Source: Saccoglossus kowalevskii | Taxonomy: Eukaryota; Hemichordata; Enteropneusta; Harrimaniidae | DNA length: 34,409 nucleotides | Direction of reading: 5' to 3' | Assembly: GCF_000003605.2 (NCBI RefSeq) | Contig: NW_003156238.1 | Location: 257,410-291,818 of the forward strand | In this document: positions 1,102 through 34,409 of the stretch, piece by piece | Layout of the letters: each line of letters opens with the position of its first letter | Position numbering within the stretch: position 1 is the first letter of the stretch | Notes under the pieces: model-generated | Databases searched by the model: none | Told to the model about the DNA's origin: nothing | Seen by the model: the letters and a program-made list of their open reading frames with translations, nothing else | Translations under genes and position numbers: made by a program

Positions 1102-6805
<5,704 letters not shown>

Positions 6806-8354: not shown

Positions 8355-9294
8355 TTGATATAAATGAAACTACTTGCGTTAATATCAACTGCAACTTCTT
8401 TATTTGTAGTCCTCATACTATACAAACAGTTTTCCTTCTTGCCTGACAAACAAAATTGTGTATCTGAGGTTTGTATTTACTTAAATCAGCTAATTTTTAT
8501 TCTTTTTGTTGAGGGCAGCCCATCAAGAAATTCATCATTCATATACAAACCGGCTACGATGCTTCAACCTGAAAGTGAAAACATGCTTCTTATCCTCACG
8601 GGAAGTGTTTGGTTGTTGAACCTCGGTAACCTCAACTGTGTCAGCATTCAAAATATGCTAATATATGTTAATGAGGTCGCGATGATAGTCTGCCAGTGTT
8701 TGCACAGTGCATGTTTGGCGTACAGTGTGACCACTATTTTTTTTTATTAGACGCATAAAATCATTAGGAAAGGATAAAAAGGGTCTTACAGAAAGAAATT
8801 AAAACAAACTACAATCTAAAAAAGAAAACAAAAAATAAAAACTTTTCTAAAAAAATAAAACAAATCAAACTATGTTGATTTCAATGTAAGGGAGGGGGGG
8901 GGGTCAGAGGTCAATGATCCAGATTCTTGACCTCAATACTTGTGTATGTTTTGTTTTCTTTATCCACAAAACACACATAATTTAAGCTGCATGTTACCAA
9001 GGCAACACATGATCTCCTGCAAAATGTATGTTTTCCTTATATTTGAGAAACATGAATTCAATCGTTCAACAATACTATAATTTGTACAGGTTACTAGTAT
9101 TCACGTAAGTACCACGTGATTTATTTTAATGACGCATTCACGACCTTGCAAGTCAATGTCGTACACATTGCACTTAGCGAGTGACATCGTCTTGACATCG
9201 GACAGTTGTTTTGACGGAACAAATAAACGAAGTCAAATAAACCGATGAAAACGAGGCTACGACTCATCAGCCGTTCAGGACGGACATTGAAATC
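6946..9294. other. Intergenic region between the two esterase genes
   Basis: 2.3 kb with no supportable exon. It holds the (AAT)n tract, AT-rich stretches and a G-run near 8890. It must contain the promoter of gene 2, but I see no convincing TATA box just upstream of 9295; a CACGTG E-box is at about 9113. Confidence 0.6.
8292..8354. repeat. (AAT)21 microsatellite
   Basis: Perfect trinucleotide run of 63 bp, about 0.9 kb upstream of gene 2. Confidence 0.95.
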
Positions 9295-15663
<6,369 letters not shown>

Positions 15664-16507: not shown

Positions 16508-16799
16508 CGAAGAAGGCATATTCATTGGCTACAGCGATTTTCATGAAGACTCTACCTTAATTTATCAAAATTTATAAAATATTCATAAAACATCTATCTT
16601 TAAAAAATCTATTACTTCGTGGAAATCCAAAATAGAAATAGATTACACATAAACGAAGAAGGCATATTCATTGGCTACAGCGATTTTCATGAAGACTCTA
16701 CCTTAATTTATCAAAATTTATAAAATATTCATAAAACATCTATCTTTAAAAAATCTATTACTTCGTGGAAATCCAAAATAGAAATAGATTACACATAAA
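16508..16799. repeat. 146-bp identical tandem duplication
   Basis: Two consecutive copies (16508-16653 and 16654-16799), starting CGAAGAAGGCATATTCATTG, with no difference found by eye. A very recent duplication, or kept identical by conversion. Confidence 0.9.
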
Positions 16800-23379: not shown

Positions 23380-24173
23380 GAACACTATATATAAATCCTA
23401 CTTAGTTTGTATCAGATACACAGACTCCATAAGACACCTTACAAGCAACGATATTCTAGGAAGGTCTAGTCGATGTAAGACCAAGCGGTTGTCACATTAT
23501 CAACAAACTTCGAAGAATGTACTTATTCGATACTGTGGAACTGTTTATAAAACTAATGGAATTAATCAAATGTGGATTTGAACAATTTAAAACAGTTGAT
23601 GGATATTAATGTTGAACAAAGATCGCATGTTATGTTGTGTATGTTTATTTGGTCATATCTCCAATAGAGTTGTTATCACTACCACCATTTTCCATTGTGT
23701 TTCGTCATACCCATATTGCTGAACACACATACTGACGCATGTCTATAAACCTGGTGTTAAACTGACTGGTATTAAAGACCATATATTTCTTAAATGCAGT
23801 TAAAATCGTAGGATATGCATATAAATAAGTGGCACGTGTTACCAACAATGAATTGTATTGACGTCAGAGTAGGCTTTCCAAAATTTAAACACATGTCATC
23901 TTTCCAATGAAGTTGAAATTTATAATTATTGTATAATCATAATTTCCCGGAAGGTTAACGGAAATAAATTTGGCATGTTACTTGAAAACTGTGGAAAACA
24001 AAATTACATTCTTCACTGACATTATGTTGAATGGATGTCGCAATTGTTTTGCAGCCTCCAAAACAAGACAATATCGTGTGGCTTGCATACTTGTATTTAA
24101 CGATCACATTTTTTACAACTGAATTTACCTATATTTAACCCTGATCGCATATTTAACTCTCATAGTACCAGTG
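23380..24173. other. Non-coding, nothing recognised
   Basis: AT-rich stretch without open frames of note or repeats that I could detect. Confidence 0.5.
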
Positions 24174-26043: not shown

Positions 26044-26950
26044 TGTCATCATTCTTTATTTTTATGTTTTTGTCATATTACCTCAAACCCTGGCAAATGG
26101 AAGTGTTCATTGAGTCATGGGAAGATATGGTGTGCATTACCTTGTGATAACTGCCTTAAAGATGACTGACAGGTCATACTTGTTTTCAACTCTGGAAGGA
26201 AAGTGGAACCTGCCAGGTGTGCTTGTAATTTACATAACAAAGGTCTTTACAGCTTTGGAAGAAGAATTGGAATCTACCAAGTGTGCTGTTATTTGAATAA
26301 CAGGGGATGTTAAAATCTACTGAGTTGCCTATGTGACACAGCTGCTAGCAGGATCACATTCTGATTGGCTTATGTTGAAACCCAGGTGGTGACACAGAAT
26401 CATGCCTATAAATTGGACAGACTCGGGTTAGTTGGTATCCATCATTTCAACTTGGTGTCCGTCACTTCAACTTGCTTCAACTGTGTGGTCTGCTACGATA
26501 TTGTGTGACAAGTGATACAGGCTACAGCCATCATGTTGTGAGACTTGCATGAACTGCTCTGCGATCTCCTGCTTTCAGCGGTGCCCTCCAGAATACCTGC
26601 ATTGCTCTGCAACCCAGACTCCTGTATTTCTTCGTTGTTGTGTTGCAGAAGCCATTAACTGTCGTCCATTAATACATCCTGGAACTGTGAGTTATCACCA
26701 ATGTACACTTCCCTAAGCAATCCCCTATTTTAGTGACTTTATTCATTGTATTTTTCTGTGCTCTATGTTTTGTAATTATTTGGGAGGTATTAAAGCCAGG
26801 AGCTTTAACTCGATATTTTGGTGTATGTGTATTTCATTTCCAGTACTATTGTCTTGTCTACCCCATACTAGCAGTGAAAGAATCCCTTGTCCAGTGTGAG
26901 TTCTGTGGGTGGCCCTCTCAATTGCGATAAGCAGGCCTTACACTGTGACA
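26044..26950 (+). repeat. 5' LTR of the Gypsy element
   Basis: Bounded by TGTCA at the left and TGACA at the right, which are inverse to each other. The left edge coincides with the end of similarity between the two dispersed segments. A second TGTCA at 26071 is an alternative start. The right edge is three bases before the primer-binding site. Confidence 0.7.
26407..26412 (+). promoter_or_regulatory. TATA box in the LTR
   Basis: TATAAA in the middle of the LTR, where the U3/R border and start of the genomic RNA would be expected. Confidence 0.5.
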
Positions 26951-26953
26951 TTT

Positions 26954-26971
26954 TGGTGTCAGAAGTGGGAT
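26954..26971 (+). promoter_or_regulatory. Primer-binding site
   Basis: TGGTGTCAGAAGTGGGAT starts with TGG, the complement of a tRNA 3' CCA end, and is a typical Gypsy-group PBS. It lies three bases after the LTR. Confidence 0.75.
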
Positions 26972-27139
26972 TGTGATTCTGATTCGGATACTGATTCTGA
27001 TTTGGATTTTATTGTCAATAATCTCTTGACTAAATTGACAGTTTCGTAACTGCTTAAGGTCTAGAGAACACGGTGTTGTCAGACCAGCTTGCACTGCTAG
27101 GTAGACATTAAATTGCTTTATTTAATAATACTGAAACTT

Positions 27140-28080
27140 AATTTACACCTTTTCAAGCATTGATATTGTTATCGAACTTGAAGAGTTAGGTAGTATATTA
27201 GGGTATAAGGGAGAAGAGCTGACTGAATTTGTGAGGACAGAGCGTGAGAAGAGAGAGCGTGAGGAGAGGGATGGGAGAGCAGCCAAACGTGAGGCTGAAA
27301 GATAGAAAAATGAACGTGAGGCTGAAAGGTTGAAAATTGAATGCCAGGAAAGAGACAGAAAACGTGAGGCAATAGAGAGAGAGGGTGAGAACGAGACCGT
27401 GAAGAGAAAGAAAAAATAAGACAGCATGAACTTGTGTTCAGATTGCGTGTGGAAGCTAATGGTCAAAATGGAGGCTTAGAACAGCTGGCGCAGTCCATTG
27501 TTAGTTGTAAGGGTTCAAAGCGATTTGCTGAAACTCAGAAATGGTCGCGTGATAGTTGGGTTATGAATATTAGTGCATTATTGACAGGCAAAGCATTGTA
27601 AGTGTTTTCTGCATTGTCTGCAGAAGAGTTCATCGATTACAATGCTGTAAAGGCAGCTTTATTGAAGCGTTATGATATGAATGATGAAGGTTATAGCAAA
27701 AAATTTCGAACTAGTAGGGCAGAAGGTGGAGAGAACATTTCGCAATTTGCAGCTAGATTAAGTAGTTATTTTGACCGCTGGATAGAGCTATCTGAAGTTG
27801 GTAGGAGTTTTGATGGAGCTAAGGATGAGAGATCAATTGATGAGTACTTTTGGTAATGAGTTGAGTTTTCAGAGGTGAAAGGTCATCCAAGTCAGTTAAA
27901 GAAATGGCTGACTTAGCTGATAAGTTTAGAGATGCACGTAGAAAGTCAGAAAGGTACAGGACAGGGTCGATTCGGTCAGTCTAAGCTAAAGTTAGGCTGA
28001 TATTTTTGTGGTGATCCAAATCATTCTGCTGTCAGTTGTCCTAAGCGTTATAAAAGTTTCCAGCCTCAGATTAAGTCATC
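27140..28080 (+). pseudogene. Gypsy gag, broken
   Basis: The N-terminal part encodes a charged, arginine/glutamate-rich coiled coil (LEELGSILGYKGEELTEFVR, then repeated REREER/AERLK). Next comes a SCAN-like capsid segment at about 27590-27810 (SALSAEEF, LLKRYDM, RLSSYFDRWIEL) and a CCHC-type knuckle near 28000-28050 (FCGDPNHSAVSC) whose first cysteine position is a stop. In-frame stops are at about 27303, 27416, 27599 and 27854, and the frame shifts after 27856. Confidence 0.85.
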
Positions 28081-28092
28081 TGCGTTGTTGAC

Positions 28093-28353
28093 ATGGATCA
28101 AACTAGTAATGATTCACAAGAAGTCAGTGCTACATGTGTAGTTCACGAGGTCACAGATGATTACAGGGAAGAAATAGAGTTGAAATGTGGCCATGAGCTG
28201 CCAATTATTTGTTTTACAAGTGTTGCACCAACTAATAGGATGGTGAGTGGTATGCCTGTTGTTCAAAACTTTATTGGTAGTACTGAGGTAGAGGTCCTGC
28301 GTGATAGTGGGTGTAGTTCAATTGTAGTATGTAGAGTCAGACATGTGTTGTGA
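28093..28353 (+). pseudogene. Gypsy aspartic protease, partial
   Basis: An 86-codon open stretch with VEVLRDSGCSSIVV; the DSG at 28303-28311 is the active-site triplet of retroelement proteases. It ends at TGA 28351-28353, soon after the active site, so the rest of the domain is out of frame. Confidence 0.8.
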
Positions 28354-28885
28354 TGGATGATACATGTCGGAAAGCCCCAGTAGATATACCATCTATAGAT
28401 ACACCCTACTATGTTGGTGAGGTCCAGGCACTGTGTATGAGGACCCCAGTGTATTGTCGGTAATATTAGTGGAGCTAGGGAGCTCAAGACTCTGATATTG
28501 GTTGAAAGCTAGGTTTAGCTCACGAGGTAGGACATGGTGAGGCGAGTTCGCCCTCGGGTGGTGAACATAGTACTCCTTCGAGTGATGGGACTAGTGTCCC
28601 CTCAGGTAATGAAGGTTGTACTAGTAGTCAGGCTAGTGTGCCCTATATAGATGAAGGTTGTTCTCCAGGTGTTGAGATAAGAGAGCCTTTAGTTAGTGGG
28701 AGTCGTTGTGAACCCTCCAGTGATTTTAATCAGGATGATAGTGTTGATGTTGTACAGGTGGTACAGACTAGGGCTCAGAAGTTAGCTGAGAAGGAGCCGT
28801 TACATAGGCTTATAGTTCCTGTGTTTAGGGAATTGATAATGAGGTTAATACGAATGGTGTTAAGAAACCTATTACTGTGGATGCA
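28354..28885 (+). pseudogene. Gypsy linker between protease and integrase
   Basis: Low-complexity Ser/Gly/Glu-rich coding remnant (CSPGVEIREP, then VVQTRAQKLAEKEPL at about 28757-28801), as found between protease and the next pol domain in this type of element. Frames shift several times. Confidence 0.6.
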
Positions 28886-29118
28886 GTGCAAGAGGCACAA
28901 CAGTCTGATTCCACATTAGAGCGTGCTAGGAAGTTATTGAGTACAAGCGAGGAGTTGATCACAGGTCGTAACAATCGGGCAAGGTTTGTGATGGAGTTTC
29001 AGTCATCTCATGTTGATAGAGGACGAGTGTGTTCTCAATTAGTTGTACCATTGTAATACCATGATCAAGTACTAGCACTTGCTCATGAGTAAGTTATGGC
29101 AGGTCATATGGGTGCTAT
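28886..29118 (+). pseudogene. Gypsy integrase, N-terminal zinc-finger half
   Basis: Encodes SDSTLERARKLL, SQLVVPL, then LALAHE and AGHMGAM with the two histidines of the HHCC zinc finger; stops occur at about 29054 and 29089. The LINE starts right after GHMGAM, so the two cysteines lie 4 kb away at 33,280. Confidence 0.85.
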
Positions 29119-29364
29119 GAAATAAATAAGTTTATTCTCCTTATTATAACCAATACAATAATAGAATCAAAAACTAAATACAATGCAAGAACATAAATGA
29201 GAATATGATCGGAAAATAGCAGTCAGGTGACTGCTAATCTAGTCCGTTCCCATCTTCTTAAATAAATAGTCATAATAATTATTTAATATGATTTGTCAAA
29301 GAAATAGAGAAAAAATATATAGATATGTATATACATTTTTATGTACAAGAAAACACTACGTTAA

Positions 29365-32151
29365 CTATGTATGCAAAAGATATTTTTTGTATTCTTTTTT
29401 AAGTATGATTCTGGACTGTATAGATCTAATATGAGTCGGAATTTTGTACCATATTTTCGGGCCAATATATTTTATACAAAATTGACCACATCTTTTTTTA
29501 ACTTTTGGAGAGAAAGATTATATTTGTAGTTTTGTCTTGTGTTATAATTGCGTTCAATCTGCGGGAAGTAGTTGTGAAAATTGGTGGTAATCTATCACAA
29601 ATTGCATCATGCACTAAAGTTCCAATTTGCGGAGAGTGTTGTTCATAAATACACTGTGTTTAAACAAAGGTGCTTAGGGTATTTTGTATTTTGTAAAGGC
29701 GATAATGCGAACAATGTGTTTTTGTATACGTAAATTTTTTTGCGAGTGACAATGATATGTATTTCCCCAAACCTTTAATCCATAAGAAATGTGGAGAAGA
29801 TTAAATGTGTTGTATAGCAATAGTTTATCCATAGTTATTCCAATGTAATTAATACTACAGGTTTCATTTAATTGGTCACCTTTAAGGTTGAATTCACCCT
29901 CAGTTTAGATTTCTTATGTGTATTGGCAATAGATAAAATTTGTTTTATCGGAATTATTAGTAAGATTATTTGCATCACACCACAATACCACCTTTTGAAA
30001 TTCACACTTCAGAGCGTTATGTTGATTTGGTTAGATTTGTTTTGAACTGTGTGGAAAATATTGGAGTCGTCAGCATATAATCTGAAATTAAAATGGTCTG
30101 TGGATTGTGGTATGTCATTTATGTATAACACAAATAGTATGGGCCCTAGAATGGAACCTTGGGGTACTCCACATGTAATTGGCAATGTTTGGGATTTAGT
30201 GTTATAAATACAAACATACTGATTTCTTGCTGTCAGATAACTTTTAAACCAGGACAAGGCAACCCCCCCTTATACCATAATGTTCAAGTTTTGCAATTAA
30301 GATACCGTGGTTCACTGTATCGAATGTTGTCGAAAAATCTATCAACATTCCAATTGTGGCATTACCCTTATCCATTTCAAATAACAAATATTGAATTAAG
30401 CTAATGAGTGAAAGTTTGCAGCTATATTTTTCCCGAAAGCCATATTGGTCTTTGTACAGTATATTATATTTTTGTAAGTAATTCATCAGGCATTTATTTA
30501 CATTTTTTTCTATAATTTTACTGATGATTGGTAGGATAGAGATAGGTCGAATGTCCCCCATATTTGTTGTATCACCTTTTTTATAGAATGGGATGACTCG
30601 GGCCTTTTTAAGACAGTCTGGAAACTGTCCTGTGGAAATTGATAAGTTTGTAATATAACATAATGGCTGCAAAATTTCGCTCATAGCATGCCTTACCAGT
30701 TTTGCACTGATTCCCTCCCAACCTGCCGCTTTGTGAAGATCCAACCTGATAATTTCAGTTTGGATATCATGAACAGTTACTGGGCGTAGGAAATTTTATT
30801 GGGTAGCTCGTTCCCCTGGAAAGTTGTAGAAAATGTTGTTATTATTTGAAGTTATTTTATTGGCTAACTTTTCGCCAATTGTAACGAAAAACTCATTAAA
30901 GTCATTCGCAATATTTTCCAAATCTGTGTGTATAATTGGTGCGCCAATATAATCCAGCTTGACTTCTTTTGGTATAACTAATTTTGATTTGGTTTTGCCA
31001 ATGAGTTCATTGATTACTTCCCAGTTCTTGTTCAGATTTCCTTTATCAGAGTTTAATAAATGTGTGTAATATTGTTGTCGGGCTTTCCGTAGTAACTTTG
31101 TCAGAATGTTTCTGTATTTTTTAGTTTTCTTGTAATTACATTTAATTATATTGCCAAATAAACGATGTTCTGTTCTAACCGATTTCCTAATTGCCGATGT
31201 TATCCAAGGTTTATCTTTGCTCCGTTTTTTGTTGACTTTTTTTAATTTCATGGGTGCATGGTCATGACATATTTAAACAAATTTCGTTGAATTTAGCGGT
31301 CGCCACATTAACATCCTAACAATCCAACACTTCAACACATGTTTCTGCTCTCAAATCAGATCTAAATGAGTTCATATGGAATTTGGAGAAATCCCGGGAA
31401 TACATATAATTGTTATCTTTATAAATTGGCAGTAGAGGGAATACTGCAAAAACTGGCAGCTGATCAGAAAGATCTAAGATAATAGTACCTGAAGAAATAC
31501 CTGTTTTGCTTATATCAGTGTATGTGTGATCAATAATTGTTTGACTAGTTTTTGTTATTCTTGTTGGGGTTTTGATTAAGTGAAAACATGACAGTGTATT
31601 GAGAAGGGAATTTACTTGGGGGTTAGAATTGTTATTCAGGTCAATATTGAAATCTACAACTAAAATACAGTCTCATTCAGTGTAATCTCAGAATTACTGA
31701 TAAAACTGTCAATTTGTGTAGCTTGGGATCTATACAATACTCCAACGATGTATTTGTGTTTGCCAATAGAAATTTCTAAAAACAAAGACTCTGCATTATT
31801 GACACGAGATCAAAACAGAACACCTTAGATTATTTTGAATGTAAATGCCTAACCCCCACCTCTTCTACCATCATCTGTGCAATTTGTTTCTAAAGAATAA
31901 TTTGTTAAACTGTGAATATTTTTGCTTTCATTTTGCCAGATTTCAGTAAGTGCAACGATACTGAATTGATGTTTTATATAATTTTCATAAAATAAATTAA
32001 AATTGCCATAATAGTTAATTTAAAGAGATCGAATAATAATATGAGATATAGAGAATGCGTCGAGTGCATTGGAGAATTCAGTATTGAACTGGGAAATGTG
32101 ATATGACGAACAGTGAATATTGAATAATTGGTGATCATTATCATCTTCCAT
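29365..32151 (-). pseudogene. LINE ORF2 (endonuclease and reverse transcriptase), broken
   Basis: From ATG 32151-32149 to TAG 29367-29365. The endonuclease part has ALTEIW, VVDFNIDL, TPTRIT, IIDH and LSDQLPVF; the last normally has His where Gln stands (31462-31460). The linker is intact at 31251-30796 (KPWITSAIRKS, NKNWEVINELIG). RT blocks include ARVIPFYKKGD, RPISILPIISKIIEK, DFSTTFDTVNH, GVPQGSILGPILF and YADD (30077-30066). The C-terminal part has SYGLKVWGNT near 29780 and IWYKIPTHIRSIQSR. A C-run near 30265 coincides with a frameshift between RT blocks. Confidence 0.9.
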
Positions 32152-32239
32152 GGTTAGTTATATGTATAAACAGTATAGGATATTTACAAGTAATTTCAAC
32201 TATATAATATTATATTATATATTATAATATGTGGTGTAC

Positions 32240-32990
32240 CTTCTGCCTTTCTAACATAGACCATTTCTTGTCCACAGAAATCTGTAATTTGTAGCTTTGC
32301 GTTTAGCATTGGCCAATTTCAGTAAATTTCCACCAGTTGGTGTCAGATTTACATTGATATATTTTACTCTTTTCTCTATACCCTAGATTGTATGTGGTTA
32401 TCTGATTTATTTTCTTTCGGTCCCGGTACACTTCATCTTTTTTTTCGTCCAGCGAATTTAACAATTATAGGTCTTGGCCGAGGTTTTGTATTTGTTGCGC
32501 CATTTTTTCTGGTGGGACAATCTTTCCTATTCTGTGGGTGATTTCAATATCCCTTGATGTCACATTTGGAACAATCTTCTGTATAACTTTAAGTGATATT
32601 TAATTGGTACTTTCAGTTGTATCTTCGGGTATGCCATGTATCTCGACGTTGTCTCTTCTACTATACTGATTTTGTTCTTCACTGGTCTTTTCTAAGACAG
32701 TAATATGCTGAACAAGATTCGCGTTACAATCTTCAATTTTTTGAATTTTTGATTTTCCATAATATCATTAAGAAAGTCCAATGAGGCCTTAATTTCTCTC
32801 ATACTGAGTTCATTTATACAGCTTAGTTGACAGCTGATGTCATCCAAACGATCTTCAATTGTTGTTGGCAGTACATGAGTTTCTTTGCCAGGAGACATAC
32901 GCTTTTATGACGCTTTTTACAAAGAAATGTGCCATTCTCCACTTGACTAATGCCCCGAGTAGTACCACAATCTTGGCACGTTTTTGGCAT
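32240..32990 (-). pseudogene. LINE ORF1, broken
   Basis: Starts at ATG 32990-32988 with a Cys-containing MPKTCQDCG..FLCKK segment, then a coiled-coil stretch (TTIEDRLDDISCQLSCINEL) in another frame. Then come the hallmarks of an L1-type RNA-binding ORF1 protein: EITHRIGK, RPIIVKFAGRKK, DEVYRDRKK, and near 32270 YRFLWTRNG. Several frameshifts and stops. Confidence 0.72.
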
Positions 32991-33222
32991 TGTTCTAACA
33001 ATAGACCTTTGAATGGAATATGATAATGACCAACGTAGAACAAAGAGCAGTACTTGATCACAATGACAACTAAACCGGTGCAAGTAAAACTTGATTTACG
33101 TGGAAATCGTCAGCAGATATGGCACTGAAAGTTGGTTATACAGACTCATCAGGCTTTATAAAAGATGAACATGTGATTGTCCGAGATATGGATTCTATAA
33201 TAGAAAGCAAAATACTACAGAT

Positions 33223-34270
33223 AGAATAGCAACTCAGTTTTATTGGCCTGGTATGCAGAATGATGTTATTAGATATTGCAGGTCATGTGATATATGTCAG
33301 AAGACCACTCCTAGGGGTCGTGTTAGCAAGGTACCATTAGGCAATATGCCCTTGATTGAAGTTTCATTTCAGATGATAGCTATGGATCTGATTGGTCCGA
33401 TCAGTCCCGCGACTGAGAGAGGTCATAGGTACATTTTACCTGTTGTAGACTATGCGTTCACGATACCATGAGGCAGTAGCGTTAAAGAAAATTACTTTTG
33501 AAGTAGTTGCAGATGCTTAAGTTAGTATATATAGTAGAGTTGGTGTACCCAAAGAAGTTTTAACTGATTTAGGGACACAATTTGTATCTGAAATTATGAA
33601 GGAAGTGAGTAGAGTGTTGTCTATTAAACAATTATCCATATCACCCAGCATGTAATGGTTTGGTTGAGCGGTTTAATGCTACTTTGAAAAGTATGATGAA
33701 ACGTATGTGTCAAGAACGAAGGATTGGGATAGGTATCTGTACTGTTTGCCTATAGAAAAACTCCTCAGGAGAGTTTAGGGTTTTCACCCTTTGATCTTAT
33801 TTATGGTAGAACAGTGAGGGGCACAATGATGATTTTAAGAGAGTTGTGGACAAAGGAAACCACTACACCAGAGGATAAAACTACATACCAGTATGTCCTA
33901 GATTTGCGAAATCATCTTGAAGAGACATGTAAATTGGCTCAAGCTGAGTTAGCTAAGGGATATGATAGGAAGGCCAGGGATGGGAAGTTTCAACCTGGTG
34001 ACAAAGTGTTAGTGTTACTTCCCACTGACCACAATAAGTTGTTGATGCAAATGAATGACAGGGACCATATGTAATTAAGGAGAGAGTGTGTATGATGGAT
34101 TACATTATGGATGTAAAAGGCAAGGTGAAAATTTTTCATTCTAACTTATTGAAAACATATTACGATAGAGACAAACTGAATGACAAGAAAGTGGTTACAG
34201 GGGTGATGAACTGTGTGTGCCCTGCAGTTGTTGAATATGATACTACTGACAGTGATACAATACTGTGTGA
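33223..34270 (+). pseudogene. Gypsy integrase, core and C-terminal part
   Basis: Resumes after the LINE with TTDRIATQFYWPGM and the two zinc cysteines in YCRSCDICQKT. The catalytic triad positions are visible: Asp in AMDLIGP (33385-33387), Asp in LTDLGTQF (33566-33568) and Glu in GLVERFNATLK (33666-33668). Later come LAKGYDRKARDGKFQPGDKV (to 34007) and a GPY motif near 34065 in another frame, then VKIFHSNLLKTYYDR. At least four frameshifts, for example near 33455. Confidence 0.9.
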
Positions 34271-34275
34271 TAGTG

Positions 34276-34408
34276 GTGAGGTTTTGCATTGATTTTCGCA
34301 AACTCAATAGCATTACAATGTTTGATGCAGAACCAATGCCATCACCTGAATATCTATGTTCACGATTAAAAGAGGGTCGGTACTTCACCAAAATTGATCT
34401 AATCAAGG
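34276..34408 (+). pseudogene. Gypsy reverse transcriptase, start (runs off the window)
   Basis: Encodes FCIDFRKLNSIT, EPMPSPEYLCSRL and GRYFTKIDL, the first conserved RT blocks of Ty3/Gypsy. It follows integrase directly, in another frame. The segment expected before it (the LVKKKDG block and linker) is missing, so a deletion joins integrase to RT here. Confidence 0.85.
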
Positions 34409-34409
34409 G

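Follow-up and report, generated by a model that had tools for sequence, protein, structure and literature searches.

The right-hand end of a stretch of 34,409 nucleotides (the window; bases 257410-291818 of contig C4559, in a host genome of 572 Mb) carries a long terminal repeat (LTR) retrotransposon of the Ty3/Gypsy type, in which the integrase (INT) is encoded ahead of the reverse transcriptase (RT). This copy very probably represents a degenerate member of a family, here called family A, of Gmr1-like elements residing in a hemichordate genome. Gmr1-like is the best fit, as a sequence-only reading of the window had also proposed, because Gypsy-type domains come in the order protease (PR), INT, RT and RNase H (RH), an LTR follows RNase H with no integrase in between, the integrase-first elements separate from ordinary Gypsy elements in trees, and Gag is SCAN-like. 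The integrase-first Gypsy type is itself already known and uncommon, and the element is not of a new kind.

Integrase lies before reverse transcriptase in the window copy and its family

The position of the integrase before RT was confirmed for both the window copy and its family. In the window, an Integrase_H2C2 match (Pfam, E 9.8e-13) at 33169-33468 precedes the RT motif FCIDFRKLN, read at 34282-34308. Matches to a 250-base DNA probe that spans the integrase tail and RT came to 58 rows and fell into 36 places (window excluded, best-scoring candidates only). Among the matches listed, 20 of the 36 places hold both the integrase tail and RT, and in all 20 the integrase comes first on the same strand. 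Four places hold the integrase part only and 12 RT only, while the reverse order was found in none.

Longer copies extend this picture to the 3' end of the element. In one copy (L013), integrase (rve, 6.7e-11) is followed by RT (RVT_1, 1.5e-6, slightly below its cut-off), partial RNase H (RT_RNaseH_2, 1.6e-10) and LTR; another (L064) has partial integrase, RT, RNase H and LTR, and in both copies these parts lie on one strand. A third (L063/L017) lacks the integrase core but preserves, in this order, the tail of the integrase, parts of RT, a complete RNase H (3.6e-37) and pieces of the LTR. In L013, L063 and L064 the LTR lies 3' of RNase H with no intervening integrase, which is the arrangement that the earlier reading had expected on extension to the right; it is seen in these copies, and not in the window copy, where a run of N hides this part. 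At all seven of the loci L059-L065, no integrase was found on the strand of the element in the 1.8-3.6 kb read beyond the last RNase H. An upstream integrase was called in L059, L064 and L065, and none was called there in L060-L063. Readable relatives have the D-35-E spacing of the integrase, and the Pfam matches are of the Gypsy type (Integrase_H2C2, rve, RVT_1, RT_RNaseH/RT_RNaseH_2).

Elements of ordinary order occur in the same genome. A genome scan with RT_RNaseH_2, in which 150 of 448 candidates were scored, yielded 30 loci, in which domain order was called with purpose-built profile models. The ordinary order RT-RNase H-integrase was found in 15 of the 30, and an integrase directly before RNase H in one (L041). 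Pfam searches of 10 natural stretches recovered six ordinary elements in which RNase H and then integrase share one frame; in two others (L050 and L056) the stretch ends before the integrase, which sits in another frame. These ordinary Ty3/Gypsy elements (L034, L044, L047, L049, L053 and others) have RVT_1, RT_RNaseH, H2C2 and rve in common with family A, whereas their integrase comes after RNase H.

In addition to family A, integrase-first elements formed families B (L041 and L060), C (L059) and D (L065). L041 was placed in family B by the profile models and L060 by an integrase-tail piece before its RT, which is 57% identical to family A over 70 amino acids. A family B copy on the minus strand (L060:4084-6813) has an internal deletion and a pair of LTR-like direct repeats, 96.3% alike over 509 columns. 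On contig C3559, family C forms a tandem array whose units are spaced by about 5.7 kb and share 98.7% of their sequence. RNase H matches every 4.4-7.1 kb or so were seen on this contig and on C158, C819, C1028, C1400 and C4161, a regular spacing that suggests Gypsy units in tandem; these may be true arrays or effects of assembly.

The families were compared in two trees. In that of RNase H (25 rows; nine integrase-first, 16 ordinary), the integrase-first rows of families A-D form one group with support 84/97. The integrase tree was built from 28 rows covering at least 85 model columns, 10 of them integrase-first (eight from family A and one each from B and C) and 18 ordinary; its integrase-first rows likewise form one group, with support 98/95. 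Some loci give two rows in this tree, and 12 rows fill about half of the columns or less. Among the labels, L035 and L048 were taken as ordinary from near-identical siblings, and L038 and L055 as family B by similarity alone. In pairwise identity, the RNase H of family A is 41-53% identical to that of families B, C and D and 31-41% to that of ordinary elements, and its integrase is 51% identical to that of family C and 27-36% to those of ordinary elements, two of which gave no match. The simplest reading is a single move of the integrase, which would date back to an ancestor common to at least four families.

Anatomy of the window copy

The sequence-only reading had placed the start of the element at 28886. 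The element in fact begins at 26044 with an LTR, and all of its parts lie on the plus strand of 26044-34409: LTR, primer binding site, Gag, a protease-like piece, integrase and the start of RT. The 5' LTR (TGTCATC...GTGACA, about 907 bp, 26044-26950) was delimited by alignment with the LTRs of other copies, its ends being read by eye. It is 81.5% identical over 909 columns to the LTR 3' of RNase H in L064, and 81.9% over 906 columns to that in L013. The primer binding site, TGGTGTCAGAAGTGGGAT, at 26954-26971 is a single match in the window, where none was expected; with one position left free, the motif is present in L010 and L011 among 65 loci. A tRNA-Leu would presumably pair with it through its 3' end. 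In L010, the 5' LTR (179-1081) runs backwards with respect to the internal region; the inversion breaks exactly at the border between the two, beyond which the primer binding site and Gag read forward.

Remains of Gag follow as open pieces in several frames (about 27135-28088), with a CCHC knuckle from 28001 and a zf-CCHC match below the Pfam cut-off (E 0.019). A protease-like piece with the motif LRDSGCSS (28075-28350) was assigned by motif and position. The pre-integrase region and the first half of the HHCC domain (28829-29119) were aligned to L010-L012, and 28829-29053 gave no Pfam match. Here the integrase is split by an inserted non-LTR retrotransposon (LINE) on the minus strand, at about 29120-33210, whose borders were taken from the alignment gap relative to L010-L012. 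It was identified by RVT_1 matches at 30247-30795 and 30012-30269, both on the minus strand (E 2.5e-11 and 1.5e-11), and no direct repeat of at least 12 bases was found at its two borders as a target-site duplication. The second half of the HHCC domain and the integrase core (33211-33752) are broken into frames; their Pfam matches after Integrase_H2C2 are weaker (rve 0.02, rve_3 4.4e-4). The integrase C-terminal part has a GPY/F-like tail (33733-34289, in open pieces 33733-34071 and 34059-34289), of which the family C counterpart matches Integrase_p58_C. The first RT blocks, from FCIDFRKLN to KIDLIKG (34282-34409), were recognised by motif and by matches of the RT probe, and are cut by the run of N. 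By themselves, the window's RT piece (34210-34407), protease, GPY-tail and Gag pieces gave no relevant Pfam match; they were recognised through motifs and longer relatives.

Between the integrase tail and RT the window copy carries a deletion: this interval is longer by 120-409 bases in 19 of the 20 other places among the matches listed. The median excess over the window for all 20 is 310, and the loss is larger still in a copy on C2594. With its frame breaks, the LINE within its integrase and this deletion, the window copy looks dead. A run of 5,414 N (L009:820-6233) starts where the window ends. Beyond it (L009:6234-8001), a second family A copy is inverted, with LTR, RNase H and RT on the minus strand, so that the rest of the window copy's RT, its RNase H and its 3' LTR, if present, lie within the gap.

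The full layout, LTR-primer binding site-Gag (SCAN-like)-PR-INT-RT-RH-LTR, was pieced together from separate copies. Judging by known Ty3/Gypsy biology, Gag would package the RNA, RT and RNase H would start at the primer site and turn it into DNA, and the resulting copy would be inserted by the integrase. Moving the integrase ahead of RT would change the order of the products and leave this route as it was, since the protease cuts the polyprotein.

Gag, assignment to the Gmr1-like group and alternative explanations

In family C, one natural frame of 896 amino acids encodes SCAN (7.7e-10), CCHC (0.0021), protease (0.0028), H2C2, rve and the integrase C-terminal domain in that order, the CCHC and protease matches both being below cut-off. 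RT follows in an overlapping frame; the family A copies are broken. In family A, Gag of L017 matches SCAN above cut-off (E 2.8e-7). Genome-wide, 26 SCAN places were found, and six of these lie beside integrase-first copies (four on C3559 and one each on C726 and C4664). None fell on the 13 contigs that carry the 15 loci of ordinary order, in a comparison made at the level of contigs, with the ordinary Gag itself unread. Among frog LTR elements, SCAN is reported from over half of those of the Gmr type and from none of the other types (PMC4131045), and the SCAN domain is described as derived from, or strikingly like, the Gag of Gmr1-like elements (PMC4592553, PMC3424704).

The Gmr1-like clade comprises Gmr1 of Atlantic cod and its relatives, and was reportedly first described by Goodwin and Poulter in 2002. 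Shared with it are the order PR-INT-RT-RH, Gypsy-type domains and a SCAN-like Gag. An integrase upstream of RT is given as its feature in three papers (PMC6238403, PMC2582038, PMC2774666). In family C, the frame of Gag continues into Pol, through the integrase at the least, and a Gag-Pol fusion is reported for fish Gmr elements (PMC11117352). The elements described here differ in their hemichordate host and in the RT active site, which reads LIDD in four of the five readable family A copies (L015, L018, L019 and L025) and LFGD in L021. Families B and C have YxDD at this site, as do five of the six ordinary elements read. Ty1/Copia elements also have their integrase before RT, but the domains found here match Gypsy-type models, and the Pfam scans reported no Copia-type model. 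Among listed titles and the openings of abstracts in the open-access library searched, with Repbase outside the scope, we found no Gmr1-like element from a hemichordate. A scan of viral contigs with the integrase returned eight pattern matches, none of them a relative.

An integrase and an RT from two ordinary Gypsy elements could have been brought together through nesting or deletion. The deletion in the window copy sits just between the integrase tail and RT, and nesting does occur locally, in the form of the LINE and of the inverted copy past the gap. However, the same order is found at 20 of the 36 places listed, family C has Gag, PR and INT in one natural frame followed by RT and RH, and both trees unite the integrase-first families. 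A chance junction is thus ruled out for the family by the recurrent order and the trees, and for the window copy it is very improbable. Still less credible is an error in the assembly of the host genome: the run of N adjoins the window and several contigs carry regularly spaced Gypsy units, but the order is repeated on many contigs, in copies that differ in divergence. A second integrase and a chance junction, either of which the sequence-only reading had named as grounds for giving up its view, were sought in the other copies and not found.

A further alternative is that another Gypsy clade acquired the order on its own, without descent from the Gmr1 lineage. In one alignment, the integrase had to be moved not only in Gmr1 but also in REM1, a second Gypsy element (PMC2774666), so that the integrase-first order may have more than one origin; moreover, our trees hold no Gmr1 reference. 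The SCAN-like Gag of families A and C, a feature tied to Gmr1-like Gag in the sources cited above for SCAN, speaks against an independent origin, which we regard as unlikely.

Several observations weigh against the assignment of the window copy to the Gmr1-like group. Its own RNase H and 3' LTR would fall inside the run of N, and both trees are unrooted and lack a named Gmr1 element, with a bootstrap value for RNase H (84) under 95. Only one of five family A Gag pieces matched SCAN, and neither the window piece (27602-27853) nor the L010 pieces did. The comparison of SCAN neighbourhoods covered six of the 26 SCAN places, and the ordinary elements by contig. Of the 30 RNase H loci, 11 had no integrase in the flank read, and three (L033, L040 and L057) were dropped for being more than half N. 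In family B, L060-L062 have no called integrase on either side, although L060 has the integrase-tail match before RT. Finally, the tandem array of L059 has an integrase 3.1 kb after RNase H, but beyond the Gag of the next unit. A Gmr1-like element nevertheless remains by far the most probable identity of the window copy.

Host, neighbouring sequence and significance

The sequence-only reading had taken the element as the best clue to the host lineage, on the grounds that the group is described from deuterostomes. That description is out of date, as Gmr1-like elements have been reported from crustaceans (PMC3587641) and from an annelid (PMC8220671); the order alone therefore does not identify the host. 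A later annelid survey did not recover the Gmr1-like clade and lists Gmr1 among clades of several phyla (PMC8556966), and a table for molluscs has no Gmr1 row (PMC6238403).

The host does look like a deuterostome by its mitochondrial code and gene order, which point to a hemichordate, probably related to the acorn worms. The mitochondrial contig (C4830, L027/L028; 17,037 bases) was found with COX1. In comparison with bovine COX1, ATA (n = 9) stands opposite isoleucine five times, valine three times, leucine once and methionine never, while ATG stands opposite methionine in 18 of 19 cases. Mitochondrial table 5 (ATA = Met), under which a lancelet had been considered as the host, was ruled out, as ATA was never opposite methionine. 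The sole AAA of COX1 is opposite lysine, as are four of five in cytochrome b, with one opposite glutamate (read by eye); AGG is absent from the ten mitochondrial genes counted. The gene order includes atp6-cox3-G-nd3-R-nd4L-nd4-H-S-nd5-cob. The identity of COX1 and cob was verified with solved structures, and that of the remaining protein genes was assigned by eye. According to PMC2697986, ATA = Ile is common to echinoderms and hemichordates, AAA = Asn is specific to echinoderms, AAA is lysine in Saccoglossus, and hemichordates and Xenoturbella have nd5-cob as a gene boundary. Unlike in the typical gene order, COX1 and most of the other mitochondrial genes are on different strands.

Elsewhere in the window, tandem carboxylesterase-like gene pieces were seen at 2827-5760 and 9241-14629, with direct repeats about 9-10 kb apart; three of these pieces match COesterase (E 6e-29, 4.5e-28 and 2.7e-28). 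A unit of 146 bases is duplicated perfectly head-to-tail at 16508-16799. Between 22640 and 25974, several stretches of 67-118 bases recur at distances of 2.6-2.9 kb with 84-91% identity, and 106 bases form an inverted repeat at 24163/24861.

These results extend the integrase-first Gypsy group to a hemichordate host, in which it comprises several divergent families, and Gypsy elements of ordinary order from the same genome serve as an internal control. The trees are consistent with the integrase having moved a single time in these families, and a SCAN-like Gag outside the chordates is relevant to how the SCAN domain of vertebrate zinc-finger proteins originated. A more speculative proposal, which we put forward as a rather doubtful one, is that the hemichordate integrase-first clade of at least four families forms a separate branch beside the known Gmr1 elements, and that the SCAN-like Gag was linked to this order before chordates and ambulacrarians split. 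If so, the capsid part that is found later in vertebrate SCAN zinc-finger proteins would already have been tied to the integrase-first order before that split.

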